Source: Beta vulgaris subsp. vulgaris | Lineage: Eukaryota; Streptophyta; Magnoliopsida; Caryophyllales; Amaranthaceae | Reading direction: 5' to 3' | Length of the DNA stretch: 64,000 nucleotides | NCBI RefSeq assembly: GCF_026745355.1 | Contig: NC_079207.1 | Coordinates: 35,937,430 to 36,001,429 of the forward strand | Part shown: one piece after another, positions 12,113 to 64,000 of the stretch | How the letters are laid out: every line of letters starts with the position of its first letter | Numbering within the stretch: position 1 is the first letter of the stretch | Position numbers and translations under genes: made by a program | The notes under the pieces: generated by a model | What the model was told of the DNA's origin: nothing | The model's database searches: none | The model's input: only the letters and a program-made list of their open reading frames with translations

Positions 12113-12350
12113 GGTTGAACCACCGGAGCACTTATTCACAAGTGCTTCGGTTGACTAGTCAACCGAAGCACTTGTGATAAGTGCTCCGGTTAACTAGTCA
12201 ACCGAAGCACTTGTGATAAGTGCTCCGGTGGACTTATCAACCGAAGCACTTGTGAATTTTTAATATTAAAATTTTCACAAGTGCTTGGGTTGATTGTTCA
12301 ACCCAAACACTTGACAAGTAGCACATGGAGTTTTTTCCACTACTCTGGTG
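12113..12350 (-). repeat. CACTA subterminal inverted repeats and terminus
   Basis: A roughly 17-bp motif, AAGTGCTTCGGTTGACT, alternates with its inverse, AGTCAACCGAAGCACTT, at least seven times between 12120 and 12315, forming adjacent palindromes with minor variants (CTCCGG, CTTGGG). Such arrays are the transposase-binding subterminal regions of CACTA elements. The terminus lies about 35 bp further right (TTTTTTCCACTACTCTGGTG at 12331-12350); read inward it starts CACCAGAGTAGTGG. The exact end is uncertain by a few bases, because LINE coding homology begins immediately to the right. Confidence 0.7.
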
Positions 12351-33900: not shown

Positions 33901-36900
33901 GGGTTGAACACATTTTTCTGGCACGACCTTTGGGTGGGCTCCTCTCCACTAAAGGTAATATTCCCAAGGCTATATAGAATTGCAGCCAACAATCTAGCAT
34001 CAATAGGGTCCATGGGATATTGGGATGGATTCCATTGGCAATGGAGTTTCGAATGGACTAGAGAGCTTAGACCTCAAGATAAAGTGGAAGAGGAGAAATT
34101 ACAGCAGCTTCTTAATGGGGTATGTCCTGCATTAGAATCAAGTGACGAGCTCAACTAGACTTTGCATAAGTCGGGGCAATTCACCGTTAAATCTTTCTCA
34201 CAAGCTCTGGGAAAGAACTCAAATTTTAATCCTGCCACGGCGATTAAAGGGGTTTGGAGGGGATTGGTTCCCTATAGAATTGAAGTATTTGTATGGGCAG
34301 CTCTACTAGGGAAAATCAACACAAAATCCAAATTGGCTTCCCTGGGTATAATCCCTAGTAGCGATGCAGGATGTGTGTTTTGCAACAATGCAATAGAAGA
34401 CCATTCTCACCTCCTTCTTCATTGTAGTTTTTCATGGCGACTATGGCAATGGTGGATAGACATTTGGGGTTCTTGTTGGGTTTATCCTTTTTCACTCTCG
34501 GATGCAATGATCTCATGGCACTCCCCCTATCGCGAACCGTTCTTCAAAAAAGTCTGGCTTGCAAGCTTCTTTATCATACTATGGACCTTGTGGAAAGAAC
34601 GGAACGCGCGAGTCTTCTCCCAAAAATCATCCACTCCTGAACAACTTCAACACCTAGTTCTTTTGCACGGCATGTTGGTGGATAAAAGGGTGGTCAGACC
34701 CCTTCCCCTACTCCCCGGAGGAGGTGTTTCGCCACCCTCCCTGCCTAAGGTGGGGTGGATCAAAGTGCCTCAAGACAACGCACCTGCCCAATCCCAGCAG
34801 TGCTCAATGGACGCCCCCTCCTAGCTGCGCCATTAAATGGAACGTGGATGCGTCCACTTCCATGAATTTGTCTCGCTCAGCAGTGGGTGGGGTGCTACGA
34901 AATCATCTAGGAGTTTTCATGTGTCTCTTCTCATGTCCGATTCCTCACATGGAAATTAATAGTGCTGAAGTATGGGCAATACATCGTGCAATCAACATCA
35001 TCCTTTCTAAAGATGAGTTCCGAAGGCATGAAGTTATCATCGAGTCAGATTCTCTTAACGTAGTCTCATGGTGCAATGGCAACAAAGGGGGGCCTTGGAA
35101 CCTGGCTTCCAACTCAATTTCATTCGGAACTCGTTGAAAAAATGGATGAACATATCCATAATTCATAAAGGTCGTGAATCCAACTTTGTGGCTGATTCCT
35201 TGGCCAAGCTAGGCATCCCAAGATTGGATGATTTTGTTGCATGGATATAAGGGGAATGCTCAAATGTCTTCACCTTGTCTCTAATCATTGGTCTTTTGCT
35301 TTCAAGGTTCTGTAGAATGTAATGTTATCTATGTGTGCTTTGTATGGCAACAGCTATTAAGTTGGGTAGCTGGTTTTGTATGCTCTGATGATGGAGAGAG
35401 TTTCTCCTTCTACTATGGTGTGCTAGACACTATGAAAGTTTTCTCCTAACGGAGGAATACCATAGTCTTAGTCGAGGCTTTCTCTCCCTCATCCTTCGAA
35501 TAAATAAAAATGAGCAAATTTATCAAAAAAAAAATATGAAAGGATTAGCGATAGTGGAGGGCCCACATCATATTAGATTCAGAATATGTACAATCAATCT
35601 GTTAAGTAATTCATATTTAAAGATATTGATGGTCCAAATTACTTGTTGAAGATTGTGCATTGGAAAGGGAATACCAAAAGAGGACAAGTAAACTATATCG
35701 TGTCATGATAGCCATGAAATTAAAACTCTCCCGTTTCGTTACAGAACGGTCGTTCTTTAACGGATTTTGAATTTGCCGTTCTGCGAAATTCCGTTACAGA
35801 ATGCCATAATAAAAATCACATACTTCTCGCCACGTTGTCCGTTCCGTAACGCGAACTCACCGCGTTCCTGTTACATCAGTTTCTTTTAAATATTAGCCAA
35901 AAATATTTTATAATTTAATTATATAGCTAATGTAAAGATTTAATTATATTATGTTGTAATAATGCTTTGTAAACTAAAACAAAGTAGATAAGGTTAGAAC
36001 ATATGTGATTTTTTTAAAAAAATTCATGTCGTATCGGCCGTGAAACGTTTAATTTTTCGTCACAAGCCGTTCCCGCGACAACGCGACCGCGACTGCGTTT
36101 TTTTTCTCTGAATTGATAGCAAATAAACTTGCAACAAAATTTTAGGTTGTTAAGTTCCAATGGCTTGACCAAATATTTCATTTATTTGACAGATCTATGC
36201 AGTTTTGCTGCCTATCATCGTTTTCACTATCCGATACATTAGGAGAAGAGATGTACACGATTTACACCATGCCATTTTAGGTAATGTCAAGATTTTATGT
36301 ACTACTATCAATAATTTTTTTTGTTGAAGAGAAGTTTAACATACAAATTATTTGACAATATGCAGGTCTGTTATATGCAGTGCTCATTACTGGGGTCATT
36401 ACAGATGCTATAAAAGATGCAGTTGGTCGGCCTAGGCCAAACTTCTTTTGGCGTTGCTTTCCTGATGGCCAGGATGTAAGATCAGTTACTGTTTTATGCT
36501 TGTTATTTTGTTTAAGAGGATTACTTCATGCAACATCTTAGAATACTTTCATCTGAAAATAAAAACAACTTGACTATATGAAGTTTAATCTCTGTTGTGC
36601 TCTTATCCCACAGATTTATAATCACCTTGGTAATGTTATATGCAATGGTGATGCTAGTGTCATAAAGGAAGGGCACAAGAGTTTTCCAAGTGGTCACACA
36701 TCATGTAATTATTCCCGCTACTACTTAGTTACTTCATACTTTTATTTGGTTCTGTTGTTTGATTGACATCAACATATGATACCGCTATTATCTCTAGATT
36801 ATTTTCGCAAACTAACGGATTTCATATTGCGGTTTGGGAGGTGTTTGATTAGTTTTTCTGCGATGACTCTGTTGCTTTAGATATTTATTTTTGTCTGTAG

Positions 36901-40673: not shown

Positions 40674-40807
40674 TCTATTATATAAGCTAAGGAGGAAGCT
40701 ATGGTGTCCCCCCTTAAAAAGACTTATATATCTTTAATCTTACAAAAAATAATACAGATAATTTTTTCTAATTCTTTGCTCATTTACAAATATCTCTTTT
40801 ATATAAG
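40674..40807 (+). mobile_element. 5' end of a Helitron, truncated by the LTR array
   Basis: TCTATTATATAAGCTAAGGA matches the first bases of the Helitron at 28310, and the similarity continues through the GTGTCCCC/AAAAAGACT region. It stops at 40808 where the first LTR of the array begins, so the retrotransposon appears to have inserted into this Helitron. The missing remainder would lie beyond the right end of the array, outside the window. Confidence 0.55.
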
Positions 40808-41107
40808 TGATGCATGAGATGATGTGGATACTTGTTCTTGGATACTCTTGAGGCATGATGTCAAATAAAAGTGTGTAGAGTTCTAGTTATGTTAGAACTC
40901 ATATCTTTATTGCTTTCCTAGTTCTACTTGTATTAGGAATCATGGTTTTGCCTACGTTCTTAAAACGATGGATTTTACATGATTCAAAGAGTCTAGAGAG
41001 TCTAGGACTTAGGGACTTGTCCTAAGCCTATTAGGGTTATAGTTTATTATGTTTCCTAGTAGCATTAGGTTATTTCTTTCCTACTAGGATTAGCATAATT
41101 AAACTAG

Positions 41108-41115
41108 TATAAATA
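41108..41115 (+). promoter_or_regulatory. LTR TATA box
   Basis: TATAAATA inside CTAGTATAAATAGAGTC, repeated in every LTR of the array (about 300 bp from each LTR start). It would drive transcription rightward through the unit. Confidence 0.6.
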
Positions 41116-41196
41116 GAGTCTATGTAGTTCATATTTAGATGGTGAATAATAATAATTTTGTGAGTTTGAGTGTTTACCCAAATCCTCTTGAGTGCT

Positions 41197-41436
41197 GGTG
41201 GCTTAGCCTTTACGCATTCAAAACCCTTAGATTTATTCCTTGTGGTGGCTTAGCCTTTATCATTGAATAAACTAAGTACTATCCAGTTTTGTTTTGTTTA
41301 GTTGGTGGCTTTGCCTTTATGCTAATCAAACAATTCGAACCTTTTATGTTATTCTTGGTGATTAAATTCTTTATGGAATTGACATAAAAGCCTATCCAAC
41401 CCTTAGTTTGATATTCGTGGTGATTAAATTCTTTAT
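41197..41436 (+). repeat. Degenerate sub-repeats within the LTR
   Basis: GGTGGCTTAGCCTTTA (41197), GGTGGCTTAGCCTTTA (41244), GGTGGCTTTGCCTTTA (41304), then GGTGATTAAATTCTTTAT (41357 and 41419). Each is followed by a variable spacer ending in an AT-CAA/ATTCAAA-like element, a spacing of 47-62 bp. They lie downstream of the TATA box, probably in R/U5, and are present in all LTR copies. Confidence 0.7.
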
Positions 41437-41520
41437 CGAAAATCAACTAAGTACAATCCTTTATTTCTGTTAGCTTCCGCACTTGTATTTGATCTATTTT
41501 AGTAGATTAAATACATCATA

Positions 41521-41533
41521 TGGTATCAAGAGC
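41521..41533 (+). promoter_or_regulatory. Primer binding site (initiator-Met tRNA type)
   Basis: TGGTATCAAGAGC lies two bases after the LTR end. It matches the plant initiator methionyl-tRNA 3'-end complement (TGGTATCAGAGC) except for one extra A. It recurs in each unit. Confidence 0.8.
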
Positions 41534-42191
41534 TTTGGTGACATCCATTGAAGAAGGCCTTTCGAGCTTTCATCCAGTTCATACTATTGCTCGAAATTTT
41601 TTCCTTTAAGGGGAGTATTAGATCTTCAAGAAAGTCTTAAAGATCAAATCTTTTTTCCAAGATTTTTGATTTTTCACAAAGTTTCATCGAAGGACATCAT
41701 TATTCATTGTCAAGTGGTGAAAGAAAATCATCCAAGATCCACAAAAACATCCAAGAAAAAAACCTTCCGTAACAGCCAGTTTTTTGGGGTAAATTTGAGA
41801 GCTTCGTTCTCCCACTCCAAACGAATTTTGGGTGATTCTTGATCCTAAATTGGACTACTATTTGTCTACTTTGCTATCCTAAAATTTCGTAAGGTTTGAA
41901 GTTGATTTGGTATATGTTCGAGACTGATCTTTCGAATTGGTCAAAAACCGGGTTAATCTGGCACAGTGTTGCGAGATTTAAAACTGCAAACAATTGGCTT
42001 TGAATTTTTCAATGAAATTTTGGTCGAGTGTTGCAGACACATAGATCTAGGTCCTGGAAGAATTTTACGTGATTTCGAGTTGTTTTGCCTGGTATTCTTC
42101 ACTTTTACTTGCATCAAAGTTCTGGGCAGTTTACAGGCAAATTAATGGATCAAATCTCCGGGAATGGCAAAATCCGTGGACGAATTTTTTC

Positions 42192-42204
42192 AAGAAGGGG
42201 AGTA
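42192..42204 (+). promoter_or_regulatory. Polypurine tract before the next LTR
   Basis: AAGAAGGGGAGTA directly abuts TGATGC of LTR 2. The same junction occurs in each unit, with a shortened GGG in units ending at 53395 and 57592. It would prime plus-strand DNA synthesis. Confidence 0.75.
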
Positions 42205-45200
42205 TGATGCATGAGATGATGTGGATACTTGTTCTTGGATACTCTTGAGGCATGATTCAAATAGAAGTGTGTAGAGTTCTAGTTATGTTAGAACTCATAT
42301 CTTTATTGCTTTCCTAGTTCTACTTGTATTAGGAATCATGGTTTTGCCTACGTTCTTAAAACGATGGATTTTACATGATTCAAAGAGTCTAGAGAGTCTA
42401 GGACTTAGGGACTTGTCCTAAGCCTATTAGGGTTATAGTTTATTATGTTTTCCTAGTAGCATTAGGTTATTTCTTTCCTACTAGGATTAGCATAATTAAA
42501 CTAGTATAAATAGAGTCTATGTAGTTCATATTTAGATGGTGAATAATAATAATTTTGTGAGTTTGAGTGTTTACCCAAATCCTCTTGAGTGCTGGTGGCT
42601 TAGCCTTTACGCATTCAAAACCCTTAGATTTATTCCTTGTGGTGGCTTAGCCTTTATCATTGAATAAACTAAGTACTATCCAGTTTTGTTTTGTTTAGTT
42701 GGTGGCTTTGCCTTTATGCTAATCAAACAATTCGAACCTTTTATGTTATTCTTGGTGATTAAATTCTTTATGGAATTGACATAAAAGCCTATCCAACCCT
42801 TAGTTTGATATTCGTGGTGATTAAATTCTTTATCGAAAATCAACTAAGTACATCCTTTATTCTGTTAGCTTCCGCACTTGTATTTGATCTATTTAGAGAT
42901 TAAATACATCATATGGTATCAAGAGCTTTGGTGACATCCATTGAAGAAGGCCTTTCGAGCTTTCATCCAGTTCATACTATTGCTCGAAATTTTTTCCTTT
43001 AAGGGGGAGTATTAGATCTTCAAGAAAGTCTTAAAGATCAAATCTTTTTTCCAAGATTTTTGATTTTTCACAAAGTTTCATCGAAGGACATCATTATTCA
43101 TTGTCAAGTGGTGAAAGAAAATCATCCAAGATCCACAAAAACATCCAAGAAAAAAACCTTCCGTAACAGCCAGTTTTTTGGGGTAAATTTGAGAGCTTCG
43201 TTCTCCCACCTCCAAACGAATTTTTGGGTGATTCTTGATCCTAAATTGGACTACTATTTGTCTACTTTGCTATCCTAAAATTTCGTAAGGTTTGAAGTTG
43301 ATTTGTATATGTTCGAGACTGATCTTTCGAATTGGTCAAAAACCGGGTTAATCTGGCACAGTGTTGCGAGATTTAAAACTGCAAACAATTGGCTTTGAAT
43401 TTTTCAATGAAATTTTGGTCGAGTGTTGCAGACACATAGATCTAGGTCCTGGAAGAATTTTACGTGATTTCGAGTTGTTTTGCCTGGTATTCTTCACTTT
43501 TACTTGCATCAAAGTTCTGGGCAGTTTACAGGCAAAATTTAATGGATCAAATCTCCGGGGAATGGCAAAATCCGTGGACGAATTTTTTCAAGAAGGGGAG
43601 TATGATGCATGAGATGATGTGGATACTTGTTCTTGGATACTCTTGAGGCATGATTTCAAATAGAAGTGTGTAGAGTTCTAGTTATGTTAGAACTCATATC
43701 TTTATTGCTTTCCTAGTTCTACTTGTATTAGGAATCATGGTTTTGCCTACGTTCTTAAAACGATGGATTTTACATGATTCAAAGAGTCTAGAGAGTCTAG
43801 GACTTAGGGACTTGTCCTAAGCCTATTAGGGTTATAGTTTATTATGTTTTCCTAGTAGCATTAGGTTATTTCTTTCCTACTAGGATTAGCATAATTAAAC
43901 TAGTATAAATAGAGTCTATGTAGTTCATATTTAGATGGTGAATAATAATAATTTTGTGAGTTTGAGTGTTTACCCAAATCCTCTTGAGTGCTGGTGGCTT
44001 AGCCTTTACGCATTCAAAACCCTTAGATTTATTCCTTGTGGTGGCTTAGCCTTTATCATTGAATAAACTAAGTACTATCCAGTTTTGTTTTGTTTAGTTG
44101 GTGGCTTTGCCTTTATGCTAATCAAACAATTCGAACCTTTTATGTTATTCTTGGTGATTAAATTCTTTATGGAATTGACATAAAAGCCTATCCAACCCTT
44201 AGTTTGATATTCGTGGTGATTAAATTCTTTATCGAAAATCAACTAAGTACAATCCTTTATTTCTGTTAGCTTCCGCACTTGTATTTGATCTATTTTAGTA
44301 GATTAAATACATCATATGGTATCAAGAGCTTTGGTGACATCCATTGAAGAAGGCCTTTCGAGCTTTCATCCAGTTCATACTATTGCTCGAAATTTTTTCC
44401 TTTAAGGGGGAGTATTAGATCTTCAAGAAAGTCTTAAAGATCAAATCTTTTTTCCAAGATTTTTGATTTTTCACAAAGTTTCATCGAAGGACATCATTAT
44501 TCATTGTCAAGTGGTGAAAGAAAATCATCCAAGATCCACAAAAACATCCAAGAAAAAAACCTTCCGTAACAGCCAGTTTTTTGGGGTAAATTTGAGAGCT
44601 TCGTTCTCCCACCTCCAAACGAATTTTTGGGTGATTCTTGATCCTAAATTGGACTACTATTTGTCTACTTTGCTATCCTAAAATTTCGTAAGGTTTGAAG
44701 TTGATTTGGTATATGTTCGAGACTGATCTTTCGAATTGGTCAAAAACCGGGTTAATCTGGCACAGTGTTGCGAGATTTAAAACTGCAAACAATTGGCTTT
44801 GAATTTTTCAATGAAATTTTGGTCGAGTGTTGCAGACACATAGATCTAGGTCCTGGAAGAATTTTACGTGATTTCGAGTTGTTTTGCCTGGTATTCTTCA
44901 CTTTTACTTGCATCAAAGTTCTGGGCAGTTTACAGGCAAATTAATGGATCAAATCTCCGGGAATGGCAAAATCCGTGGACGAATTTTTTCAAGAAGGGGA
45001 GTATGATGCATGAGATGATGTGGATACTTGTTCTTGGATACTCTTGAGGCATGATTTCAAATAGAAGTGTGTAGAGTTCTAGTTATGTTAGAACTCATAT
45101 CTTTATTGCTTTCCTAGTTCTACTTGTATTAGGAATCATGGTTTTGCCTACGTTCTTAAAACGATGGATTTTACATGATTCAAAGAGTCTAGAGAGTCTA

Positions 45201-48200
45201 GGACTTAGGGACTTGTCCTAAGCCTATTAGGGTTATAGTTTATTATGTTTTCCTAGTAGCATTAGGTTATTTCTTTCCTACTAGGATTAGCATAATTAAA
45301 CTAGTATAAATAGAGTCTATGTAGTTCATATTTAATGGTGAATAATAATAATTTTGTGAGTTTGAGTGTTTACCCAAATCCTCTTGAGTGCTGGTGGCTT
45401 AGCCTTTACGCATTCAAAACCCTTAGATTTATTCCTTGTGGTGGCTTAGCCTTTATCATTGAATAAACTAAGTACTATCCAGTTTTGTTTTGTTTAGTGG
45501 TGGCTTTGCCTTTATGCTAATCAAACAATTCGAACCTTTTATGTTATTCTTGGTGATTAAATTCTTTATGGAATTGACATAAAAGCCTATCCAACCCTTA
45601 GTTTGATATTCGTGGTGATTAAATTCTTTATCGAAAATCAACTAAGTACAATCCTTTATTTCTGTTAGCTTCCGCACTTGTATTTGATCTATTTTAGTAG
45701 ATTAAATACATCATATGGTATCAAGAGCTTTGGTGACATCCATTGAAGAAGGCCTTTCGAGCTTTCATCCAGTTCATACTATTGCTCGAAATTTTTTCCT
45801 TTAAGGGGGAGTATTAGATCTTCAAGAAAGTCTTAAAGATCAAATCTTTTTTCCAAGATTTTTGATTTTTCACAAAGTTTCATCGAAGGACATCATTATT
45901 CATTGTCAAGTGGTGAAACAAAATCATCCAAGATCCACAAAAACATCCAAGAAAAAAACCTTCCGTAACAGCCAGTTTTTTGGGGTAAATTTGAGAGCTT
46001 CGTTCTCCCACCTCCAAACGAATTTTTGGGTGATTCTTGATCCTAAATTGGACTACTATTTGTCTACTTTGCTATCCTAAAATTTCGTAAGGTTTGAAGT
46101 TGATTTGGTATATGTTCGAGACTGATCTTTCGAATTGGTCAAAAACCGGGTTAATCTGGCACAGTGTTGCGAGATTTAAAACTGCAAACAATTGGCTTTG
46201 AATTTTTCAATGAAATTTTGGTCGAGTGTTGCAGACACATAGATCTAGGTCCTGGAAGAATTTTACGTGATTTCGAGTTGTTTTGCCTGGTATTCTTCAC
46301 TTTTACTTGCATCAAAGTTCTGGGCAGTTTACAGGCAAATTAATGGATCAAATCTCCGGGAATGGCAAAATCCGTGGACGAATTTTTTCAAGAAGGGGAG
46401 TATGATGCATGAGATGATGTGGATACTTGTTCTTGGATACTCTTGAGGCATGATTTCAAATAGAAGTGTGTAGAGTTCTAGTTATGTTAGAACTCATATC
46501 TTTATTGCTTTCCTAGTTCTACTTGTATTAGGAATCATGGTTTTGCCTACGTTCTTAAAACGATGGATTTTACATGATTCAAAGAGTCTAGAGAGTCTAG
46601 GACTTAGGGACTTGTCCTAAGCCTATTAGGGTTATAGTTTATTATGTTTTCCTAGTAGCATTAGGTTATTTCTTTCCTACTAGGATTAGCATAATTAAAC
46701 TAGTATAAATAGAGTCTATGTAGTTCATATTTAGATGGTGAATAATAATAATTTTGTGAGTTTGAGTGTTTACCCAAATCCTCTTGAGTGCTGGTGGCTT
46801 AGCCTTTACGCATTCAAAACCCTTAGATTTATTCCTTGTGGTGGCTTAGCCTTTATCATTGAATAAACTAAGTACTATCCAGTTTTGTTTTGTTTAGTTG
46901 GTGGCTTTGCCTTTATGCTAATCAAACAATTCGAACCTTTTATGTTATTCTTGGTGATTAAATTCTTTATGGAATTGACATAAAAGCCTATCCAACCCTT
47001 AGTTTGATATTCGTGGTGATTAAATTCTTTATCGAAAATCAACTAAGTACAATCCTTTATTTCTGTTAGCTTCCGCACTTGTATTTGATCTATTTTAGTA
47101 GATTAAATACATCATATGGTATCAAGAGCTTTGGTGACATCCATTGAAGAAGGCCTTTCGAGCTTTCATCCAGTTCATACTATTGCTCGAAATTTTTTCC
47201 TTTAAGGGGGAGTATTAGATCTTCAAGAAAGTCTTAAAGATCAAATCTTTTTTCCAAGATTTTTGATTTTTCACAAAGTTTCATCGAAGGACATCATTAT
47301 TCATTGTCAAGTGGTGAAAAAAATCATCCAAGATCCACAAAAACATCCAAGAAAAAAACCTTCCGTAACAGCCAGTTTTTTGGGGTAAATTTGAGAGCTT
47401 CGTTCTCCCACCTCCAAACGAATTTTTGGGTGATTCTTGATCCTAAATTGGACTACTATTTGTCTACTTTGCTATCCTAAAATTTCGTAAGGTTTGAAGT
47501 TGATTTGGTATATGTTCGAGACTGATCTTTCGAATTGGTCAAAAACCGGGTTAATCTGGCACAGTGTTGCGAGATTTAAAACTGCAAACAATTGGCTTTG
47601 AATTTTTCAATGAAATTTTGGTCGAGTGTTGCAGACACATAGATCTAGGTCCTGGAAGAATTTTACGTGATTTCGAGTTGTTTTGCCTGGTATTCTTCAC
47701 TTTTACTTGCATCAAAGTTCTGGGCAGTTTACAGGCAAATTAATGGATCAAATCTCCGGGAATGGCAAAATCCGTGGACGAATTTTTTAAGAAGGGGAGT
47801 ATGATGCATGAGATGATGTGGATACTTGTTCTTGGATACTCTTGAGGCATGATTTCAAATAGAAGTGTGTAGAGTTCTAGTTATGTTAGAACTCATATCT
47901 TTATTGCTTTCCTAGTTCTACTTGTATTAGGAATCATGGTTTTGCCTACGTTCTTAAAACGATGGATTTTACATGATTCAAAGAGTCTAGAGAGTCTAGG
48001 ACTTAGGGACTTGTCCTAAGCCTATTAGGGTTATAGTTTATTATGTTTTCCTAGTAGCATTAGGTTATTTCTTTCCTACTAGGATTAGCATAATTAAACT
48101 AGTATAAATAGAGTCTATGTAGTTCATATTTAGATGGTGAATAATAATAATTTTGTGAGTTTGAGTGTTTACCCAAATCCTCTTGAGTGCTGGTGGCTTA

Positions 48201-51200
48201 GCCTTTACGCATTCAAAACCCTTAGATTTATTCCTTGTGGTGGCTTAGCCTTTATCATTGAATAAACTAAGTACTATCCAGTTTTGTTTTGTTTAGTTGG
48301 TGGCTTTGCCTTTATGCTAATCAAACAATTCGAACCTTTTATGTTATTCTTGGTGATTAAATTCTTTATGGAATTGACATAAAAGCCTATCCAACCCTTA
48401 GTTTGATATTCGTGGTGATTAAATTCTTTATCGAAAATCAACTAAGTACAATCCTTTATTTCTGTTAGCTTCCGCACTTGTATTTGATCTATTTTAGTAG
48501 ATTAAATACATCATATGGTATCAAGAGCTTTGGTGACATCCATTGAAGAAGGCCTTTCGAGCTTTCATCCAGTTCATACTATTGCTCGAAATTTTTTCCT
48601 TTAAGGGGGAGTATTAGATCTTCAAGAAAGTCTTAAAGATCAAATCTTTTTTCCAAGATTTTTGATTTTTCACAAAGTTTCATCGAAGGACATCATTATT
48701 CATTGTCAAGTGGTGAAAAAAATCATCCAAGATCCACAAAAACATCCAAGAAAAAAACCTTCCGTAACAGCCAGTTTTTTGGGGTAAATTTGAGAGCTTC
48801 GTTCTCCCACCTCCAAACGAATTTTTGGGTGATTCTTGATCCTAAATTGGACTACTATTTGTCTACTTTGCTATCCTAAAATTTCGTAAGGTTTGAAGTT
48901 GATTTGGTATATGTTCGAGACTGATCTTTCGAATTGGTCAAAAACCGGGTTAATCTGGCACAGTGTTGCGAGATTTAAAACTGCAAACAATTGGCTTTGA
49001 ATTTTTCAATGAAATTTTGGTCGAGTGTTGCAGACACATAGATCTAGGTCCTGGAAGAATTTTACGTGATTTCGAGTTGTTTTGCCTGGTATTCTTCACT
49101 TTTACTTGCATCAAAGTTCTGGGCAGTTTACAGGCAAATTAATGGATCAAATCTCCGGGAATGGCAAAATCCGTGGACGAATTTTTTCAAGAAGGGGAGT
49201 ATGATGCATGAGATGATGTGGATACTTGTTCTTGGATACTCTTGAGGCATGATTTCAAATAGAAGTGTGTAGAGTTCTAGTTATGTTAGAACTCATATCT
49301 TTATTGCTTTCCTAGTTCTACTTGTATTAGGAATCATGGTTTTGCCTACGTTCTTAAAACGATGGATTTTACATGATTCAAAGAGTCTAGAGAGTCTAGG
49401 ACTTAGGGACTTGTCCTAAGCCTATTAGGGTTATAGTTTATTATGTTTTCCTAGTAGCATTAGGTTATTTCTTTCCTACTAGGATTAGCATAATTAAACT
49501 AGTATAAATAGAGTCTATGTAGTTCATATTTAGATGGTGAATAATAATAATTTTGTGAGTTTGAGTGTTTACCCAAATCCTCTTGAGTGCTGGTGGCTTA
49601 GCCTTTACGCATTCAAAACCCTTAGATTTATTCCTTGTGGTGGCTTAGCCTTTATCATTGAATAAACTAAGTACTATCCAGTTTTGTTTTGTTTAGTTGG
49701 TGGCTTTGCCTTTATGCTAATCAAACAATTCGAACCTTTTATGTTATTCTTGGTGATTAAATTCTTTATGGAATTGACATAAAACCTATCCAACCCTTAG
49801 TTTGATATTCGTGGGATTAAATTCTTTATCGAAAATCAACTAAGTACAATCCTTTATTTCTGTTAGCTTCCGCACTTGTATTTGATCTATTTTAGTAGAT
49901 TAAATACATCATATGGTATCAAGAGCTTTGGTGACATCCATTGAAGAAGGCCTTTCGAGCTTTCATCCAGTTCATACTATTGCTCGAAATTTTTTCCTTT
50001 AAGGGGAGTATTAGATCTTCAAGAAAGTCTTAAAGATCAAATCTTTTTTCCAAGATTTTTGATTTTTCACAAAGTTTCATCGAAGGACATCATTATTCAT
50101 TGTCAAGTGGTGAAAGAAAATCATCCAAGATCCACAAAAACATCCAAGAAAAAAACCTTCCGTAACAGCCAGTTTTTTGGGGTAAATTTGAGAGCTTCGT
50201 TCTCCCACCTCCAAACGAATTTTTGGGTGATTCTTGATCCTAAATTGGACTACTATTTGTCTACTTTGCTATCCTAAAATTTCGTAAGGTTTGAAGTTGA
50301 TTTGGTATATGTTCGAGACTGATCTTTCGAATTGGTCAAAAACCGGGTTAATCTGGCACAGTGTTGCGAGATTTAAAACTGCAAACAATTGGCTTTGAAT
50401 TTTTCAATGAAATTTTGGTCGAGTGTTGCAGACACATAGATCTAGGTCCTGGAAGAATTTTACGTGATTTCGAGTTGTTTTGCCTGGTATTCTTCACTTT
50501 TACTTGCATCAAAGTTCTGGGCAGTTTACAGGCAAATTAATGGATCAAATCTCCGGGAATGGCAAAATCCGTGGACGAATTTTTTCAAGAAGGGGAGTAT
50601 GATGCATGAGATGATGTGGATACTTGTTCTTGGATACTCTTGAGGCATGATTTCAAATAGAAGTGTGTAGAGTTCTAGTTATGTTAGAACTCATATCTTT
50701 ATTGCTTTCCTAGTTCTACTTGTATTAGGAATCATGGTTTTGCCTACGTTCTTAAAACGATGGATTTTACATGATTCAAAGAGTCTAGAGAGTCTAGGAC
50801 TTAGGGACTTGTCCTAAGCCTATTAGGGTTATAGTTTATTAGTTTTCCTAGTAGCATTAGGTTATTTCTTTCCTACTAGGATTAGCATAATTAAACTAGT
50901 ATAAATAGAGTCTATGTAGTTCATATTTAGATGGTGAATAATAATAATTTTGTGAGTTTGAGTGTTTACCCAAATCCTCTTGAGTGCTGGTGGCTTAGCC
51001 TTTACGCATTCAAAACCCTTAGATTTATTCCTTGTGGTGGCTTAGCCTTTATCATTGAATAAACTAAGTACTATCCAGTTTTGTTTTGTTTAGTTGGTGG
51101 CTTTGCCTTTATGCTAATCAAACAATTCGAACCTTTTATGTTATTCTTGGTGATTAAATTCTTTATGGAATTGACATAAAAGCCTATCCAACCCTTAGTT

Positions 51201-54200
51201 TGATATTCGTGGTGATTAAATTCTTTATCGAAAATCAACTAAGTACAATCCTTTATTTCTGTTAGCTTCCGCACTTGTATTTGATCTATTTTAGTAGATT
51301 AAATACATATGGTATCAAGAGCTTTGGTGACATCCATTGAAGAAGGCCTTTCGAGCTTTCATCCAGTTCATACTATTGCTCGAAATTTTTTCCTTTAAGG
51401 GGGAGTATTAGATCTTCAAGAAAGTCTTAAAGATCAAATCTTTTTTCCAAGATTTTTGATTTTTCACAAAGTTTCATCGAAGGACATCATTATTCATTGT
51501 CAAGTGGTGAAACAAAATCATCCAAGATCCACAAAAACATCCAAGAAAAAAACCTTCCGTAACAGCCAGTTTTTTGGGGTAAATTTGAGAGCTTCGTTCT
51601 CCCACCTCCAAACGAATTTTTGGGTGATTCTTGATCCTAAATTGGACTACTATTTGTCTACTTTGCTATCCTAAAATTTCGTAAGGTTTGAAGTTGATTT
51701 GGTATATGTTCGAGACTGATCTTTCGAATTGGTCAAAAACCGGGTTAATCTGGCACAGTGTTGCGAGATTTAAAACTGCAAACAATTGGCTTTGAATTTT
51801 TCAATGAAATTTTGGTCGAGTGTTGCAGACACATAGATCTAGGTCCTGGAAGAATTTTACGTGATTTCGAGTTGTTTTGCCTGGTATTCTTCACTTTTAC
51901 TTGCATCAAAGTTCTGGGCAGTTTACAGGCAAATTAATGGATCAAATCTCCGGGAATGGCAAAATCCGTGGACGAATTTTTTCAAGAAGGGGAGTATGAT
52001 GCATGAGATGATGTGGATACTTGTTCTTGGATACTCTTGAGGCATGATTTCAAATAGAAGTGTGTAGAGTTCTAGTTATGTTAGAACTCATATCTTTATT
52101 GCTTTCCTAGTTCTACTTGTATTAGGAATCATGGTTTTGCCTACGTTCTTAAAACGATGGATTTTACATGATTCAAAGAGTCTAGAGAGTCTAGGACTTA
52201 GGGACTTGTCCTAAGCCTATTAGGGTTATAGTTTATTATGTTTTCCTAGTAGCATTAGGTTATTTCTTTCCTACTAGGATTAGCATAATTAAACTAGTAT
52301 AAATAGAGTCTATGTAGTTCATATTTAGATGGTGAATAATAATAATTTTGTGAGTTTGAGTGTTTACCCAAATCCTCTTGAGTGCTGGTGGCTTAGCCTT
52401 TACGCATTCAAAACCCTTAGATTTATTCCTTGTGGTGGCTTAGCCTTTATCATTGAATAAACTAAGTACTATCCAGTTTTGTTTTGTTTAGTTGGTGGCT
52501 TTGCCTTTATGCTAATCAAACAATTCGAACCTTTTATGTTATTCTTGGTGATTAAATTCTTTATGGAATTGACATAAAAGCCTATCCAACCCTTAGTTTG
52601 ATATTCGTGGTGATTAAATTCTTTATCGAAAATCAACTAAGTACAATCCTTTATTTCTGTTAGCTTCCGCACTTGTATTTGATCTATTTTAGTAGATTAA
52701 ATACATCATATGGTATCAAGAGCTTTGGTGACATCCATTGAAGAAGGCCTTTCGAGCTTTCATCCAGTTCATACTATTGCTCGAAATTTTTTCCTTTAAG
52801 GGGGAGTATTAGATCTTCAAGAAAGTCTTAAAGATCAAATCTTTTTTCCAAGATTTTTGATTTTTCACAAAGTTTCATCGAAGGACATCATTATTCATTG
52901 TCAAGTGGTGAAAGAAAATCATCCAAGATCCACAAAAACATCCAAGAAAAAAACCTTCCGTAACAGCCAGTTTTTTGGGGTAAATTTGAGAGCTTCGTTC
53001 TCCCACCTCCAAACGAATTTTTGGGTGATTCTTGATCCTAAATTGGACTACTATTTGTCTACTTTGCTATCCTAAAATTTCGTAAGGTTTGAAGTTGATT
53101 TGGTATATGTTCGAGACTGATCTTTCGAATTGGTCAAAAACCGGGTTAATCTGGCACAGTGTTGCGAGATTTAAAACTGCAAACAATTGGCTTTGAATTT
53201 TTCAATGAAATTTTGGTCGAGTGTTGCAGACACATAGATCTAGGTCCTGGAAGAATTTTACGTGATTTCGAGTTGTTTTGCCTGGTATTCTTCACTTTTA
53301 CTTGCATCAAAGTTCTGGGCAGTTTACAGGCAAATTAATGGATCAAATCTCCGGGAATGGCAAAATCCGTGGACGAATTTTTTAAGAAGGGAGTATGATG
53401 CATGAGATGATGTGGATACTTGTTCTTGGATACTCTTGAGGCATGATTTCAAATAGAAGTGTGTAGAGTTCTAGTTATGTTAGAACTCATATCTTTATTG
53501 CTTTCCTAGTTCTACTTGTATTAGGAATCATGGTTTTGCCTACGTTCTTAAAACGATGGATTTTACATGATTCAAAGAGTCTAGAGAGTCTAGGACTTAG
53601 GGACTTGTCCTAAGCCTATTAGGGTTATAGTTTATTATGTTTTCCTAGTAGCATTAGGTTATTTCTTTCCTACTAGGATTAGCATAATTAAACTAGTATA
53701 AATAGAGTCTATGTAGTTCATATTTAGATGGTGAATAAAATAATTTGTGAGTTTGAGTGTTTACCCAAATCCTCTTGAGTGCTGGTGGCTTAGCCTTTAC
53801 GCATTCAAAACCCTTAGATTTATTCCTTGTGGTGGCTTAGCCTTTATCATTGAATAAACTAAGTACTATCCAGTTTTGTTTTGTTTAGTTGGTGGCTTTG
53901 CCTTTATGCTAATCAAACAATTCGAACCTTTTTATGTTATTCTTGGTGATTAAATTCTTTATGGAATTGACATAAAAGCCTATCCAACCCTTAGTTTGAT
54001 ATTCGTGGTGATTAAATTCTTTATCGAAAATCAACTAAGTACAATCCTTTATTTCTGTTAGCTTCCGCACTTGTATTTGATCTATTTTAGTAGATTAAAT
54101 ACATCATATGGTATCAAGAGCTTTGGTGACATCCATTGAAGAAGGCCTTTCGAGCTTTCATCCAGTTCATACTATTGCTCGAAATTTTTTCCTTTAAGGG

Positions 54201-57200
54201 GGAGTATTAGATCTTCAAGAAAGTCTTAAAGATCAAATCTTTTTTCCAAGATTTTTGATTTTTCACAAAGTTTCATCGAAGGACATCATTATTCATTGTC
54301 AAGTGGTGAAAGAAAATCATCCAAGATCCACAAAAACATCCAAGAAAAAAACCTTCCGTAACAGCCAGTTTTTTGGGGTAAATTTGAGAGCTTCGTTCTC
54401 CCACCTCCAAACGAATTTTTGGGTGATTCTTGATCCTAAATTGGACTACTATTTGTCTACTTTGCTATCCTAAAATTTCGTAAGGTTTGAAGTTGATTTG
54501 GTATATGTTCGAGACTGATCTTTCGAATTGGTCAAAAACCGGGTTAATCTGGCACAGTGTTGCGAGATTTAAAACTGCAAACAATTGGCTTTGAATTTTT
54601 CAATGAAATTTTGGTCGAGTGTTGCAGACACATAGATCTAGGTCCTGGAAGAATTTTACGTGATTTCGATTGTTTTGCCTGGTATTCTTCACTTTTACTT
54701 GCATCAAAGTTCTGGGCAGTTTACAGGCAAATTAATGGATCAAATCTCGGGAATGGGCAAAATCCGTGGACGAATTTTTTCAAGAAGGGGAGTATGATGC
54801 ATGAGATGATGTGGATACTTGTTCTTGGATACTCTTGAGGCATGATTTCAAATAGAAGTGTGTAGAGTTCTAGTTATGTTAGAACTCATATCTTTATTGC
54901 TTTCCTAGTTCTACTTGTATTAGGAATCATGGTTTTGCCTACGTTCTTAAAACGATGGATTTTACATGATTCAAAGAGTCTAGAGAGTCTAGGACTTAGG
55001 GACTTGTCCTAAGCCTATTAGGGTTATAGTTTATTATGTTTTCCTAGTAGCATTAGGTTATTTCTTTCCTACTAGGATTAGCATAATTAAACTAGTATAA
55101 ATAGAGTCTATGTAGTTCATATTTAGATGGTGAATAATAATAATTTTGTGAGTTTGAGTGTTTACCCAAATCCTCTTGAGTGCTGGTGGCTTAGCCTTTA
55201 CGCATTCAAAACCCTTAGATTTATTCCTTGTGGTGGCTTAGCCTTTATCATTGAATAAACTAAGTACTATCCAGTTTTGTTTTGTTTAGTTGGTGGCTTT
55301 GCCTTTATGCTAATCAAACAATTCGAACCTTTTATGTTATTCTTGGTGATTAAATTCTTTATGGAATTGACATAAAAGCCTATCCAACCCTTAGTTTGAT
55401 ATTCGTGGTGATTAAATTCTTTATCGAAAATCAACTAAGTACAATCCTTTATTTCTGTTAGCTTCCGCACTTGTATTTGATCTATTTTAGTAGATTAAAT
55501 ACATCATATGGTTATCAAGAGCTTTGGTGACATCCATTGAAGAAGGCCTTTCGAGCTTTCATCCAGTTCATACTATTGCTCGAAATTTTTTCCTTTAAGG
55601 GGGAGTATTAGATCTTCAAGAAAGTCTTAAAGATCAAATCTTTTTTCCAAGATTTTTGATTTTTCACAAAGTTTCATCGAAGGACATCATTATTCATTGT
55701 CAAGTGGTGAAAGAAAATCATCCAAGATCCACAAAAACATCCAAGAAAAAAACCTTCCGTAACAGCCAGTTTTTTGGGGTAAATTTGAGAGCTTCGTTCT
55801 CCCACCTCCAAACGAATTTTTGGGTGATTCTTGATCCTAAATTGGACTACTATTTGTCTACTTTGCTATCCTAAAATTTCGTAAGGTTTGAAGTTGATTT
55901 GGTATATGTTCGAGACTGATCTTTCGAATTGGTCAAAAACCGGGTTAATCTGGCACAGTGTTGCGAGATTTAAAAACTGCAAACAATTGGCTTTGAATTT
56001 TTCAATGAAATTTTGGTCGAGTGTTGCAGACACATAGATCTAGGTCCTGGAAGAATTTTACGTGATTTCGAGTTGTTTTGCCTGGTATTCTTCACTTTTA
56101 CTTGCATCAAAGTTCTGGGCAGTTTACAGGCAAATTAATGGATCAAATCTCCGGGAATGGCAAAATCCGTGGACGAATTTTTTCAAGAAGGGGAGTATGA
56201 TGCATGAGATGATGTGGATACTTGTTCTTGGATACTCTTGAGGCATGATTTCAAATAGAAGTGTGTAGAGTTCTAGTTATGTTAGAACTCATATCTTTAT
56301 TGCTTTCCTAGTTCTACTTGTATTAGGAATCATGGTTTTGCCTACGTTCTTAAACGATGGATTTTACATGATTCAAAGAGTCTAGAGAGTCTAGGACTTA
56401 GGGACTTGTCCTAAGCCTATTAGGGTTATAGTTTATTATGTTTTCCTAGTAGCATTAGGTTATTTCTTTCCTACTAGGATTAGCATAATTAAACTAGTAT
56501 AAATAGAGTCTATGTAGTTCATATTTAGATGGTGAATAATAATAATTTTGTGAGTTTGAGTGTTTACCCAAATCCTCTTGAGTGCTGGTGGCTTAGCCTT
56601 TACGCATTCAAAACCCTTAGATTTATTCCTTGTGGTGGCTTAGCCTTTATCATTGAATAAACTAAGTACTATCCAGTTTTGTTTTGTTTAGTTGGGGCTT
56701 AGCCTTTATGCTAATCAAACAATTCGAACCTTTTATGTTATTCTTGGTGATTAAATTCTTTATGGAATTGACATAAAAGCCTATCCAACCCTTAGTTTGA
56801 TATTCGTGGTGATTAAATTCTTTATCGAAAATCAACTAAGTACAATCCTTTATTTCTGTTAGCTTCCGCACTTGTATTTGATCTATTTTAGTAGATTAAA
56901 TACATCATATGGTATCAAGAGCTTTGGTGACATCCATTGAAGAAGGCCTTCGAGCTTTCATCCAGTTCATACTATTGCTCGAAATTTTTTCCTTTAAGGG
57001 GGAGTATTAGATCTTCAAGAAAGTCTTAAAGATCAAATCTTTTTTCCAAGATTTTTGATTTTTCACAAAGTTTCATCGAAGGACATCATTATTCATTGTC
57101 AAGTGGTGAAACAAATCATCCAAGATCCACAAAAACATCCAAGAAAAAAACCTTCCGTAACAGCCAGTTTTTTGGGTAAATTTGAGAGCTTCGTTCTCCC

Positions 57201-60200
57201 CACCTCCAAACGAATTTTTGGGTGATTCTTGATCCTAAATTGGACTACTATTTGTCTACTTTGCTATCCTAAAATTTCGTAAGGTTTGAAGTTGATTTGG
57301 TATATGTTCGAGACTGATCTTTCGAATTGGTCAAAAACCGGGTTAATCTGGCACAGTGTTGCGAGATTTAAAACTGCAAACAATTGGCTTTAATTTTTCA
57401 ATGAAATTTTGGTCGAGTGTTGCAGACACATAGATCTAGGTCCTGGAAGAATTTTACGTGATTTCGAGTTGTTTTGCCTGGTATTCTTCACTTTTACTTG
57501 CATCAAAGTTCTGGGCAGTTTACAGGCAAATTAATGGATCAAATCTCCGGGAATGGCAAAATCCGTGGACGAATTTTTTCAAGAAGGGAGTATGATGCAT
57601 GAGATGATGTGGATACTTGTTCTTGGATACTCTTGAGGCATGATTTCAAATAGAAGTGTGTAGAGTTCTAGTTATGTTAGAACTCATATCTTTATTGCTT
57701 TCCTAGTTCTACTTGTATTAGGAATCATGGTTTTGCCTACGTTCTTAAAACGATGGATTTTACATGATTCAAAGAGTCTAGAGAGTCTAGGACTTAGGGA
57801 CTTGTCCTAAGCCTATTAGGAGTTTTATGTTTAATTTAGGTTTCCTAGTAGCATTAGGTTATTTCTTTCCTACTAGGATTAGCATAATTAAACTAGTATA
57901 AATAGAGTCTATGTAGTTCATATTTAGATGGTGAATAATAATAATTTTGTGAGTTTGAGTGTTTACCCAAATCCTCTTGAGTGCTGGTGGCTTAGCCTTT
58001 ACGCATTCAAAACCCTTAGATTTATTCCTTGTGGTGGCTTAGCCTTTATCATTGAATAAACTAAGTACTATCCAGTTTTGTTTTGTTTAGTTGGTGGCTT
58101 TGCCTTTATGCTAATCAAACAATTCGAACCTTTTATGTTATTCTTGGTGATTAAATTCTTTATGGAATTGACATAAAAGCCTATCCAACCCTTAGTTTGA
58201 TATTCGTGTGTGATTAAATTCTTTATCGAAAATCAACTAAGTACAATCCTTTATTTCTGTTAGCTTCCGCACTTGTATTTGATCTATTTTAGTAGATTAA
58301 ATACATCATATGGTATCAAGAGCTTTGGTGACATCCATTGAAGAAGGCCTTTCGAGCTTTCATCCAGTTCATACTATTGCTCGAAATTTTTTCCTTTAAG
58401 GGGGAGTATTAGATCTTCAAGAAAGTCTTAAAGATCAAATCTTTTTTCCAAGATTTTTGATTTTTCACAAAGTTTCATCGAAGGACATCATTATTCATTG
58501 TCAAGTGGTGGAACAAAAATCATCCAAGATCCACAAAAACATCCAAAAAAAAACCTTCCGTAACAGCCAGTTTTTTGGGGTAAATTTGAGAGCTTCGTTC
58601 TCCCACCTCCAAACGAATTTTGGGTGATTCTTGATCCTAAATTGGACTACTATTTGTCTACTTTGCTATCCTAAAGTTTCGTAAGGTTTGAAGTTGATTT
58701 GGTATATGTTCGAGACTGATCTTTCGAATTGGTCAAAAACGGGTTAATCTGGCACAGTGTTGCGAGATTTAAAACTGCAAACAATTGGCTTTGAATTTTT
58801 CAATGAAATTTGGTCGAGTGTTGCAGACACAATAGATCTAGGTCCTGGAAGAATTTTACGTGATTTCGAGTTGTTTTGCCTGGTATTCTTCACTTTTACT
58901 TGATCAAAGTTCTGGGCAGTTTACAGGCAAATTAATGGATCAAATCTCCGGGAATGGCAAAATCCGTGGACGAATTTTTTCAAGAAGGGGAGTATGATGC
59001 ATGAGATGATGTGGATACTTGTTCTTGGATACTCTTGAGGCATGATTTCAAATAGAAGTGTGTAGAGTTCTAGTTATGTTAGAACTCATATCTTTATTGC
59101 TTTCCTAGTTCTACTTGTATTAGGAATCATGGTTTTGCCTACGTTCTTAAAACGATGGATTTTACATGATTCAAAGAGTCTAGAGAGTCTAGGACTTAGG
59201 GACTTGTCCTAAGCCTATTAGGGTTATAGTTTATTATGTTTCCTAGTAGCATTAGGTTATTTCTTTCCTACTAGGATTAGCATAATTAAACTAGTATAAA
59301 TAGAGTCTATGTAGTTCATATTTAGATGGTGAATAATAATAATTTTGTGAGTTTGAGTGTTTACCCAAATCCTCTTGAGTGCTGGTGGCTTAGCCTTTAC
59401 GCATTCAAAACCCTTAGATTTATTCCTTGTGGTGGCTTAGCCTTTATCATTGAATAAACTAAGTACTATCCAGTTTTGTTTTGTTTAGTTGGTGGCTTTG
59501 CCTTTATGCTAATCAAACAATTCGAACCTTTTATGTTATTCTTGGTGATTAAATTCTTTATGGAATTGACATAAAAGCCTATCCAACCCTTAGTTTGATA
59601 TTCGTGGTGATTAAATTCTTTATCGAAAATCAACTAAGTACAATCCTTTATTTCTGTTAGCTTCCGCACTTGTATTTGATCTATTTTAGTAGATTAAATA
59701 CATCATATGGTATCAAGAGCTTTGGTGACATCCATTGAAGAAGGCCTTTCGAGCTTTCATCCAGTTCATACTATTGCTGAAATTTTTTCCTTTAAGGGGG
59801 AGTATTAGATCTTCAAGAAAGTCTTAAAGATCAAATCTTTTTTCCAAGATTTTTGATTTTTCACAAAGTTTCATCGAAGGACATCATATTCATTGTCAAG
59901 TGGTGAAAGAAAATCATCCAAGATCCACAAAAACATCCAAGAAAAAAAACCTCCCGTAACAGCCAGTTTTTTGGGGTAAATTTGAGAGCTTCGTTCTCCC
60001 ACCTCCAAACGAATTTTTGGGTGATTCTTGATCCTAAATTGGACTACTATTTGTCTACTTTGCTATCCTAAAATTTCGTAAGGTTTGAAGTTGATTTGGT
60101 ATATGTTCGAGACTGATCTTTCGAATTGGTCAAAAACCGGGTTAATCTGGCACAGTGTTGCGAGATTTAAAACTGCAAACAATTGGCTTTGAATTTTTCA

Positions 60201-63200
60201 ATGAAATTTTGGTCGAGTGTTGCAGACACATAGATCTAGGTCCTGGAAGAATTTTACGTGATTTCGAGTTGTTTTGCCTGGTATTCTTCACTTTTACTTG
60301 CATCAAAGTTCTGGGCATTTACAGGCAAATTAATGGATCAAATCTCCGGGAATGGCAAAATCCGTGGACGAATTTTTTCAAGAAGGGGAGTATGATGCAT
60401 GAGATGATGTGATCTTTTCTGGATACTCTTGAGGCATGATTTCAAATAGAAGTGTGTAGAGTTCTAGTTATGTTAGAACTCATATCTTTATTGCTTTCCT
60501 AGTTCTACTTGTATTAGGAATCATGGTTTTGCCTACGTTCTTAAAACGATGGATTTTACATGATTCAAAGAGTCTAGAGAGTCTAGGACTTAGGGACTTG
60601 TCCTAAGCCTATTAGGGTTATAGTTTATTATGTTTTCCTAGTAGCATTAGGTTATTTCTTTCCTACTAGGATTAGCATAATTAAACTAGTATAAATAGAG
60701 TCTATGTAGTTCATATTTAGATGGTGAATAATAATAATTTTGTGAGTTTGAGTGTTTACCCAAATCCTCTTGAGTGCTGGTGGCTTAGCCTTTACGCATT
60801 CAAAACCCTTAGATTTATTCCTTGTGGTGGCTTAGCCTTTATCATTGAATAAACTAAGTACTATCCAGTTTTGTTTTGTTTAGTTGGTGGCTTTGCCTTT
60901 ATGCTAATCAAACAATTCGAACCTTTTATGTTATTCTTGGTGATTAAATTCTTTATGGAATTGACATAAAAGCCTATCCAACCCTTAGTTTGATATTCGT
61001 GGTGATTAAATTCTTTATCGAAAATCAACTAAGTACAATCCTTTATTTCTGTTAGCTTCCGCACTTGTATTTGATCTATTTTAGTAGATTAAATACATCA
61101 TATGGTATCAAGAGCTTTGGTGACATCCATTGAAGAAGGCCTTTCGAGCTTTCATCCAGTTCATACTATTGCTCGAAATTTTTTCCTTTAAGGGGGAGTA
61201 TTAGATCTTCAAGAAAGTCTTAAAGATCAAATCTTTTTTCCAAGATTTTTGATTTTTCACAAAGTTTCATCGAAGGACATCATTATTCATTGTCAAGTGG
61301 TGAAAAAAATCATCCAAGATCCACAAAAACATCCAAGAAAAAAACCTTCCGTAACAGCCAGTTTTTTGGGGTAAATTTGAGAGCTTCGTTCTCCCACCTC
61401 CAAACGAATTTTTGGGTGATTCTTGATCCTAAATTGGACTACTATTTGTCTACTTTGCTATCCTAAAATTTCGTAAGGTTTGAAGTTGATTTGGTATATG
61501 TTCGAGACTGATCTTTCGAATTGGTCAAAAACCGGGTTAATCTGGCACAGTGTTGCGAGATTTAAAACTGCAAACAATTGGCTTTGAATTTTTCAATGAA
61601 ATTTTGGTCGAGTGTTGCAGACACATAGATCTAGGTCCTGGAAGAATTTTACGTGATTTCGAGTTGTTTTGCCTGGTATTCTTCACTTTTACTTGCATCA
61701 AAGTTCTGGGCAGTTTACAGGCAAATTAATGGATCAAATCTCCGAAAATGGCAAAATCCGTGGACGAATTTTTTCAAGAAGGGGAGTATGATGCATGAGA
61801 TGATGTGGATACTTGTTCTTGGATACTCTTGAGGCATGATTCAAATAGAAGTGTGTAGAGTTCTAGTTATGTTAGAACTCATATCTTTATTGCTTTCCTA
61901 GTTCTACTTGTATTAGGAATCATGGTTTTGCCTACGTTCTTAAAACGATGGATTTTACATGATTCAAAGAGTCTAGAGAGTCTAGGACTTAGGGACTTGT
62001 CCTAAGCCTATTAGGGTTATAGTTTATTATGTTTTCCTAGTAGCATTAGGTTATTTCTTTCCTACTAGGATTAGCATAATTAAACTAGTATAAATAGAGT
62101 CTATGTAGTTCATATTTAGATGGTGAATAATAATAATTTTGTGAGTTTGAGTGTTTACCCAAATCCTCTTGAGTGCTGGTGGCTTAGCCTTTACGCATTC
62201 AAAACCCTTAGATTTATTCCTTGTGGTGGCTTAGCCTTTATCATTGAATAAACTAAGTACTATCCAGTTTTGTTTTGTTTAGTTGGTGGCTTTGCCTTTA
62301 TGCTAATCAAACAATTCGAACCTTTTATGTTATTCTTGGTGATTAAATTCTTTATGGAATTGACATAAAAGCCTATCCAACCCTTAGTTTGATATTCGTG
62401 GTGATTAAATTCTTTATCGAAAATCAACTAAGTACAATCCTTTATTTCTGTTAGCTTCCGCACTTGTATTTGATCTATTTTAGTAGATTAAATACATCAT
62501 ATGGTATCAAGAGCTTTGGTGACATCCATTGAAGAAGGCCTTTCGAGCTTTCATCCAGTTCATACTATTGCTCGAATTTTTTCCTTTAAGGGGGAGTATT
62601 AGATCTTCAAGAAAGTCTTAAAGATCAAATCTTTTTTCCAAGATTTTTGTATTTTCACAAGTTTCATCGAAGGACATCATTATTCATTGTCAAGTGGTGA
62701 AAGAAAATTCATCCAAGATCCACAAAAACATCCAAGAAAAAAACCTTCCGTAACAGCCAGTTTTTTGGGGTAAATTTGAGAGCTTCGTTCTCCCACCTCC
62801 AAACGAATTTTTGGGTGATTCTTGATCCTAAATTGGACTACTATTTGTCTACTTTGCTATCCTAAAATTTCGTAAGGTTTGAAGTTGATTTGGTATATGT
62901 TCGAGACTGATCTTTCGAATTGGTCAAAAACCGGGTTAATCTGGCACAGTGTTGCGAGATTTAAAACTGCAAACAATTGGCTTTGAATTTTTCAATGAAA
63001 TTTTGTCGAGTGTGTTGCAGACACATAGATCTAGGTCCTGGAAGAATTTTACGTGATTTCGAGTTGTTTTGCCTGGTATTCTTCACTTTTACTTGCATCA
63101 AAGTTCTGGGCAGTTTACAGGCAAATTAATGGATCAAATCTCCGGGAATGGCAAAATCCGTGGACGAATTTTTTCAAGAAGGGGAGTATGATGCATGAGA

Positions 63201-64000
63201 TGATGTGGATACTTGTTCTTGGATACTCTTGAGGCATGATTTCAAATAGAAGTGTGTAGAGTTCTAGTTATGTTAGAACTCATATCTTTATTGCTTTCCT
63301 AGTTCTACTTGTATTAGGAATCATGGTTTTGCCTACGTTCTTAAAACGATGGATTTTACATGATTCAAAGAGTCTAGAGAGTCTAGGACTTAGGGACTTG
63401 TCCTAAGCCTATTAGGGTTATAGTTTATGTTTTCCTAGTAGCATTAGGTTATTTCTTTCCTACTAGGATTAGCATAATTAAACTAGTATAAATAGAGTCT
63501 ATGTAGTTCATATTTAGATGGTGAATAATAATAATTTTGTGAGTTTGAGTGTTTACCCAAATCCTCTTGAGTGCTGGTGGCTTAGCCTTTACGCATTCAA
63601 AACCCTTAGATTTATTCCTTGTGGTGGCTTAGCCTTTATCATTGAATAAACTAAGTACTATCCAGTTTTGTTTTTGTTTAGTTGGTGCTTTGCCTTTATG
63701 CTAATCAAACAATTCGAACCTTTTATGTTATTCTTGGTGATTAAATTCTTTATGGAATTGACATAAAAGCCTATCCAACCCTTAGTTTGATATTCGTGGT
63801 GATTAAATTCTTTATCGAAAATCAACTAAGTACAATCCTTTATTTCTGTTAGCTTCCGCACTTGTATTTGATCTATTTTAGTAGATTAAATACATCATAT
63901 GGTATCAAGAGCTTTGGTGACATCCATTGAAGAAGGCCTTTCGAGCTTTCATCCAGTTCATACTATTGCTCGAAATTTTTTCCTTTAAGGGGGAGTATTA

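Follow-up and report, generated by a model that had tools for sequence, protein, structure and literature searches.

A head-to-tail array of a non-autonomous LTR retrotransposon with shared LTRs in Beta vulgaris

The window analysed here, a stretch of 64,000 nucleotides of Beta vulgaris subsp. vulgaris DNA, contains a head-to-tail array that begins at position 40808 and continues up to the window edge, with 17 LTRs, 16 complete internal regions and 103 bp of a 17th internal region. The unit count and the span of at least 23 kb are lower bounds for the sequence as assembled, the right end of the array lying outside the window. The features used below are as follows, in window positions.

40808..64000, plus strand: tandem array of 17 LTRs, 16 complete internal regions and one partial internal region, running beyond the window edge
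40808, 42205, 43603, 45004, 46403, 47802, 49202, 50600, 51997: starts of LTRs 1 to 9
53396, 54795, 56198, 57593, 58995, 60393, 61789, 63189: starts of LTRs 10 to 17
40803..40807, plus strand: sequence ATAAG, a candidate for the left member of a 5-bp target duplication whose right copy would lie outside the window
40808..41518, plus strand: LTR 1 at the array edge, 711 bp, differing from the consensus by two substitutions, at unit positions 53 and 61, and by one deletion, at 245
41108..41116, plus strand: TATA box sequence TATAAATAG in LTR 1
41519..42204, plus strand: internal region 1, with the PBS-like TATGGTATCAAGAGC at its start and the PPT AAGAAGGGGAGTA at its end
43603..44314, plus strand: LTR 3, 712 bp, without any difference from the consensus
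44263..44342, plus strand: end of LTR 3 and PBS, where a 14-bp hairpin is predicted immediately upstream of the PBS (no shuffle control)
44315..45003, plus strand: internal region 3, 689 bp, without any difference from the consensus
44401..44414, plus strand: putative second, internal PPT-like tract TTTAAGGGGGAGTA, from a sequence scan
63189..63897, plus strand: LTR 17, the last in the window
63898..64000, plus strand: initial 103 bp of internal region 17, truncated at the end of the window

The part of the window to the left of the array contains several other features. A truncated RING-H2 frame lies at 5166-5690 on the plus strand and shares 96% identity with a Beta vulgaris protein along 77% of the frame; it also has a close relative of 144 amino acids (94% over 75%), and its other named matches come from quinoa and cacti. 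Pieces of a CACTA/tnp2-type transposase are found in three frames on the minus strand at 6793-10184 (Transpos_assoc with Transposase_21, DUF4218 and DUF4216). At 12140-12255, a 39-bp unit with a palindromic core is repeated three times in tandem; the three copies are predicted to fold together into one long hairpin (-73.6 kcal/mol, without shuffle control) and resemble a MITE or inverted-repeat element. Two broken LINE-like elements follow on the plus strand, one at 20838-24002 with a reverse transcriptase piece whose RVT_1 match is just below the cut-off, and one at 29041-35137 with reverse transcriptase pieces, an RRM domain and a zf-RVT piece.

The array is sharply set off from this DNA. 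The mean 20-mer multiplicity per kb was 13.2-15.9 (maximum 17) within the array, compared to 1.00-1.04 in the kb bins to its left, and a comparison of the unit with the remaining 40.8 kb of the window gave no matches beyond short ones of 13-23 bp (best E 0.88). Its left edge coincides exactly with an LTR 5' end, the flank reading ...TATATAAG directly before TGATG. LTRs and internal regions alternate strictly, with one LTR per unit and an LTR-start spacing of 1395-1403 bp, so that the first-pass annotation was right in describing at least 17 LTRs alternating with 16 internal regions at a period of about 1399 bp, head to tail and with shared LTRs. The LTR length of 711 bp that it gave is that of the first copy; the consensus LTR is 712 bp (copies of 707-716 bp) and the consensus internal region 689 bp (complete copies of 685-691 bp). 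As the right end of the array lies outside the window, the 3' end of the LTR was putatively placed from the PBS, PPT and terminal signals.

The unit carries the signals of an LTR retrotransposon. The LTR has inverted ends, TGATG and CATCA, which abut the PBS and the PPT; the terminal ACATCA is retained in 16 of the 17 LTRs and affected by a 3-bp loss in unit 8. TGGTATCAAGAGC, which we take to be a PBS of the Met-tRNA type, begins two bases past CATCA. Sixteen of the 17 copies of the PBS TATGGTATCAAGAGC are exact, and the one in unit 11 has an extra T; of the 16 copies of the PPT AAGAAGGGGAGTA, 14 are exact and two lack one G. The 16 later LTRs start directly after the purine tract in one of these two forms (14 and 2, respectively). 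There are 17 copies of the TATA box TATAAATAG in the array, one per LTR judging by its consensus position. Among IMG/VR viral contigs, from which records of the window's own genome may be excluded, no match was obtained with a 36-base query taken from the PBS region.

Coding capacity was looked for in unit 3, with a Pfam scan of the frames of its internal region. The longest stop-free frame of this internal region has 91 codons. Three of its four frames of at least 55 codons had no Pfam match at E values up to 1, and the sole match of the fourth (AMPKBI, E 0.015) was below the Pfam cut-off and was taken as chance. In the entire array, the longest stop-to-stop frame has 110 codons and lies in unit 7. 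By its TG...CA ends, PBS and PPT the element is an LTR retrotransposon; no coding capacity was detected, which supports the non-autonomous nature first proposed.

Two known types of element were considered and rejected. Cassandra was rejected as 5S boxes were not found: boxes A and C of 5S rRNA had no exact match on either strand of the array or of the window, and 5S was not matched in Rfam searches of the window and of units 3 and 4. The retrozyme was rejected as no hammerhead was found: the Rfam search of the whole window gave no family at gathering level, and none of the six matches obtained for units 3 and 4 at E values up to 5 was a hammerhead, each scoring less than half the gathering score and being taken as chance. 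TRIMs are described in excerpts of the literature as having terminal repeats of 100-250 bp and overall lengths below 540 bp (PMC4528315) or below 1000 bp (PMC6934838); the beet element, with an LTR of 712 bp and a single-element length of about 2.1 kb, falls outside these size limits.

When the 17 units were aligned to their consensus, 87 differences were counted over 23,193 bp, comprising 57 deletions, 19 insertions (76 indels altogether) and 11 substitutions. Unit 3 is the consensus, with no differences. Only four substitutions fall in LTRs, two of them in the edge LTR 1. Nine variants are found in more than one unit, and eight of these are one-base losses, five of them in homopolymer runs of 3-5 bases. 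The commonest is a one-base loss at unit position 918, found in five units; together with a substitution at 918 in two units and one at 919 in one unit, it forms a hotspot at 918-919 (GAAAGAAAAT) which involves units 4, 5, 6, 8, 12, 13 and 15 and is probably a systematic sequencing error. Any pair of units has at most one variant in common, and private variants are present in 13 of the 17 units, the exceptions being units 3, 5, 6 and 9. Plant repeats that diverge naturally would not be expected to differ by short indels to such an extent. The flanking tandem repeats with a TRF score of at least 100 provide a weak control: four of the seven have no indels and three have 2-10%. Most of the differences between units read as residual long-read errors over truly near-identical units. 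With a plant substitution rate of 1.3e-8 per site and year, the 11 substitutions in 23,193 bp would correspond to a rough age of at most ~36,000 years, a figure which is not relied on because some of these substitutions lie in error clusters and because homogenisation resets the clock.

The differences are unevenly distributed. There are 51 events in the ~7,807 bp of the last six units, 27 of them in units 12 and 13, and 36 events in the ~15,389 bp of the first eleven (both lengths nominal). A change-point, with the split chosen from the data, had a p value of 5e-5 under a multinomial null and of 0.017 when whole units were permuted, and the plain rank trend of events along the array was not significant (rho 0.42, p 0.098). 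The denser differences in the last six units suggest that the assembly becomes noisy at a distance from the unique flank, as might arise if polishing had worked near the flank and failed deeper in the array. PacBio and Nanopore data underlie the sugar-beet long-read assemblies described in the available part of PMC12614215.

These observations bear on the possibility that the array, or its unit number, is an artefact, a locus of few units having been expanded, or an arbitrary number of units written, in a noisy long-read contig. The predominance of indels (76 of the 87 events), the recurrent hotspot at 918-919, the higher density in the last six units and the four units without a private variant would all be compatible with it. 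Nevertheless, each of the other 13 units has at least one variant unique among the units, so that these 13 do not represent a single stretch pasted repeatedly, and the first eleven units are cleaner beside the unique flank, as would be given by anchored reads. An artefactual origin thus appears unlikely, and the array is probably real because most units carry errors of their own. The number of units is unproven and may be wrong, because the differences are dominated by indels and denser in the last six units. The array is also a warning that unit counts of such loci in long-read contigs need proof at the level of reads.

Independent retrotranspositions of one family next to or into each other would also leave related copies head to tail. 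However, the bases listed at the 16 internal-to-LTR and 17 LTR-to-internal junctions, some of which were additionally inspected by eye in two stretches, contain no inserted target duplication and no unrelated sequence, and neighbouring units have their LTRs in common, one per unit. The 5-bp duplications between units that the first-pass annotation named as a sign of independent insertions are not seen. Independent nested insertions were rejected for lack of duplications between units, and we consider an origin of this kind extremely improbable.

The explanation that we favour, with nearly even confidence that it is correct, is the insertion of one element followed by recent expansion through homologous recombination between shared LTRs. 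One LTR retrotransposon would have inserted as founder, and the array would then have been enlarged by unequal exchange between LTRs of sister chromatids or homologues. At each exchange, the 3' part of one copy would recombine with the 5' part of another, adding whole units of LTR and internal region; such addition of whole units would keep the period near 1400 bp and preserve the promoter, PBS and PPT. Alternatively, one-LTR circles might be captured by Rad52/single-strand annealing, with the same product. Both LTR-LTR recombination and integrase-independent capture have been put forward for such an architecture, according to excerpts of PMC11899658, PMC7215508 and PMC12786077. We infer the single founding insertion, exchange or capture as the growth step, and the recent date. 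The favoured explanation is supported by the strict alternation with one LTR per unit, by junctions free of inserted duplications and by the exact coincidence of the left array edge with an LTR start. Recent amplification or strong homogenisation would account for the few substitutions (11 in 23,193 bp) and for the sharing of at most one variant by any pair of units. The presence of two of the four LTR substitutions in the edge LTR is weakly consistent with edge units escaping homogenisation; these two may also be errors, because LTR 1 also has a deletion.

The main rival to growth in place is the arrival of a concatemer, that is, a multimer formed during or before integration and then integrated or recombined as a whole. 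Such multimers might come from template switching, from read-through transcripts of a one-LTR circle or of an existing tandem, or from rolling-circle DNA. The near-zero divergence is equally expected from a one-step integration of this kind, which would also fit the practical identity of the units and the lack of nested shared variants. The small size of the element would suit concatenated cDNA, as argued for Cassandra in the available text of PMC7215508, and rice tandems inside one target duplication have been read as possible single insertions, according to an excerpt of PMC11899658. On the other hand, at least 17 units (more than 23 kb) are far above the 2-5 repeat units mentioned for Cassandra transcripts in the same text of PMC7215508, and the private substitutions that seem to be present in the edge LTR are not needed by a one-step event. 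Concatemer arrival is accordingly possible, but we regard it as somewhat unlikely.

The array can be set beside several published systems, its architecture being already in print for plants and clams. The available part of PMC11899658 describes tandem LTR retrotransposons as widespread among plants; those of rice, Arabidopsis, almond and cotton likewise show alternation of LTRs and internal regions, shared LTRs and high identity, and recombination or a single complex insertion is proposed there for them. The two loci detailed there consist of two internal regions and three LTRs, in contrast to at least 16 units in beet, and the 28 selected rice cases have coding domains, whereas none was detected in the beet array. 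Cassandra TRIM arrays, as excerpted from PMC7215508, are also non-coding with near-identical units and reach 13 LTRs and 12 internal regions by long PCR. Their PBS, TGGTATCAGAGC, is similar to TGGTATCAAGAGC of the beet element, the latter being one base longer; the beet element differs by its LTR of 712 bp and by having no exact 5S box A or C. The biv-TRIM arrays of clams follow the same TDRx_I(x-1) pattern, the longest having 58 terminal repeats and 57 inner domains, with loci of up to 16,618 bp; they differ by their animal host and their much shorter units (PMC6934838, in excerpt). The maize TRIM Wukong also has multi-LTR forms, with 3 to 7 LTRs, for which unequal crossing over has been proposed, but is TRIM-sized and has fewer units than the beet array (PMC4528315, in excerpt). 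In Lathyrus, satellite arrays were likewise born from LTR retrotransposons, although their monomers are short tandem repeats of Ogre 3' UTRs and not a whole unit of LTR and internal region (PMC7004042).

The array length had been considered notable in the first-pass annotation; that it is exceptional is not supported in view of clam TRIM arrays of 58 terminal repeats and 57 inner domains, Cassandra arrays of 13 LTRs and 12 internal regions, and tandem LTR retrotransposons that are widespread in plants. The beet array is not the longest by unit number; it is notable for its large units, which span at least 23 kb, and for its homogeneity. The excerpt of PMC11603912 lists 60 TRIMs and one LARD among the non-autonomous LTR elements of a beet repeat library. 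No description of the present element was found in open-licence literature, mostly at abstract level, and its novelty is not established thereby.

Arrays of this kind have been proposed as a bridge between dispersed retrotransposons and satellite DNA. At this one locus there are at least 23 kb of near-identical units, and the array may possibly represent an early stage of satellite formation. A stronger version, in which the complete unit of LTR and internal region is the monomer of a homogenised array far exceeding 23 kb and, with promoter, PBS and PPT kept, is a satellite and a template battery at once, seems quite unlikely to us. If true, the array would double as a satellite and as a template battery for new retrotransposon copies. 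With its near-identical units and intact LTR signals, the array is a good test of growth in place against concatemer arrival, because an allelic series in beet accessions would discriminate between the two.

Two minor features of the unit were also observed. The second PPT-like tract, TTTAAGGGGGAGTA, lies ~85 bp past the PBS in 15 of the 17 units and is one G short in units 1 and 7; it is perhaps a relic of the 3' end of another element. LTR 3 (43603-44314) contains 4 CHG sites, compared to a mean of 15.4 in mononucleotide shuffles, none of 2000 shuffles being as low, and it is also poor in CG (7 sites). Internal region 3 is not depleted in CHG, with 17 sites compared to 18.6 in shuffles (793 of 2000 as low). 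Past methylation decay, or else selection acting on the promoter, may explain why the LTR is poor in CHG and CG.
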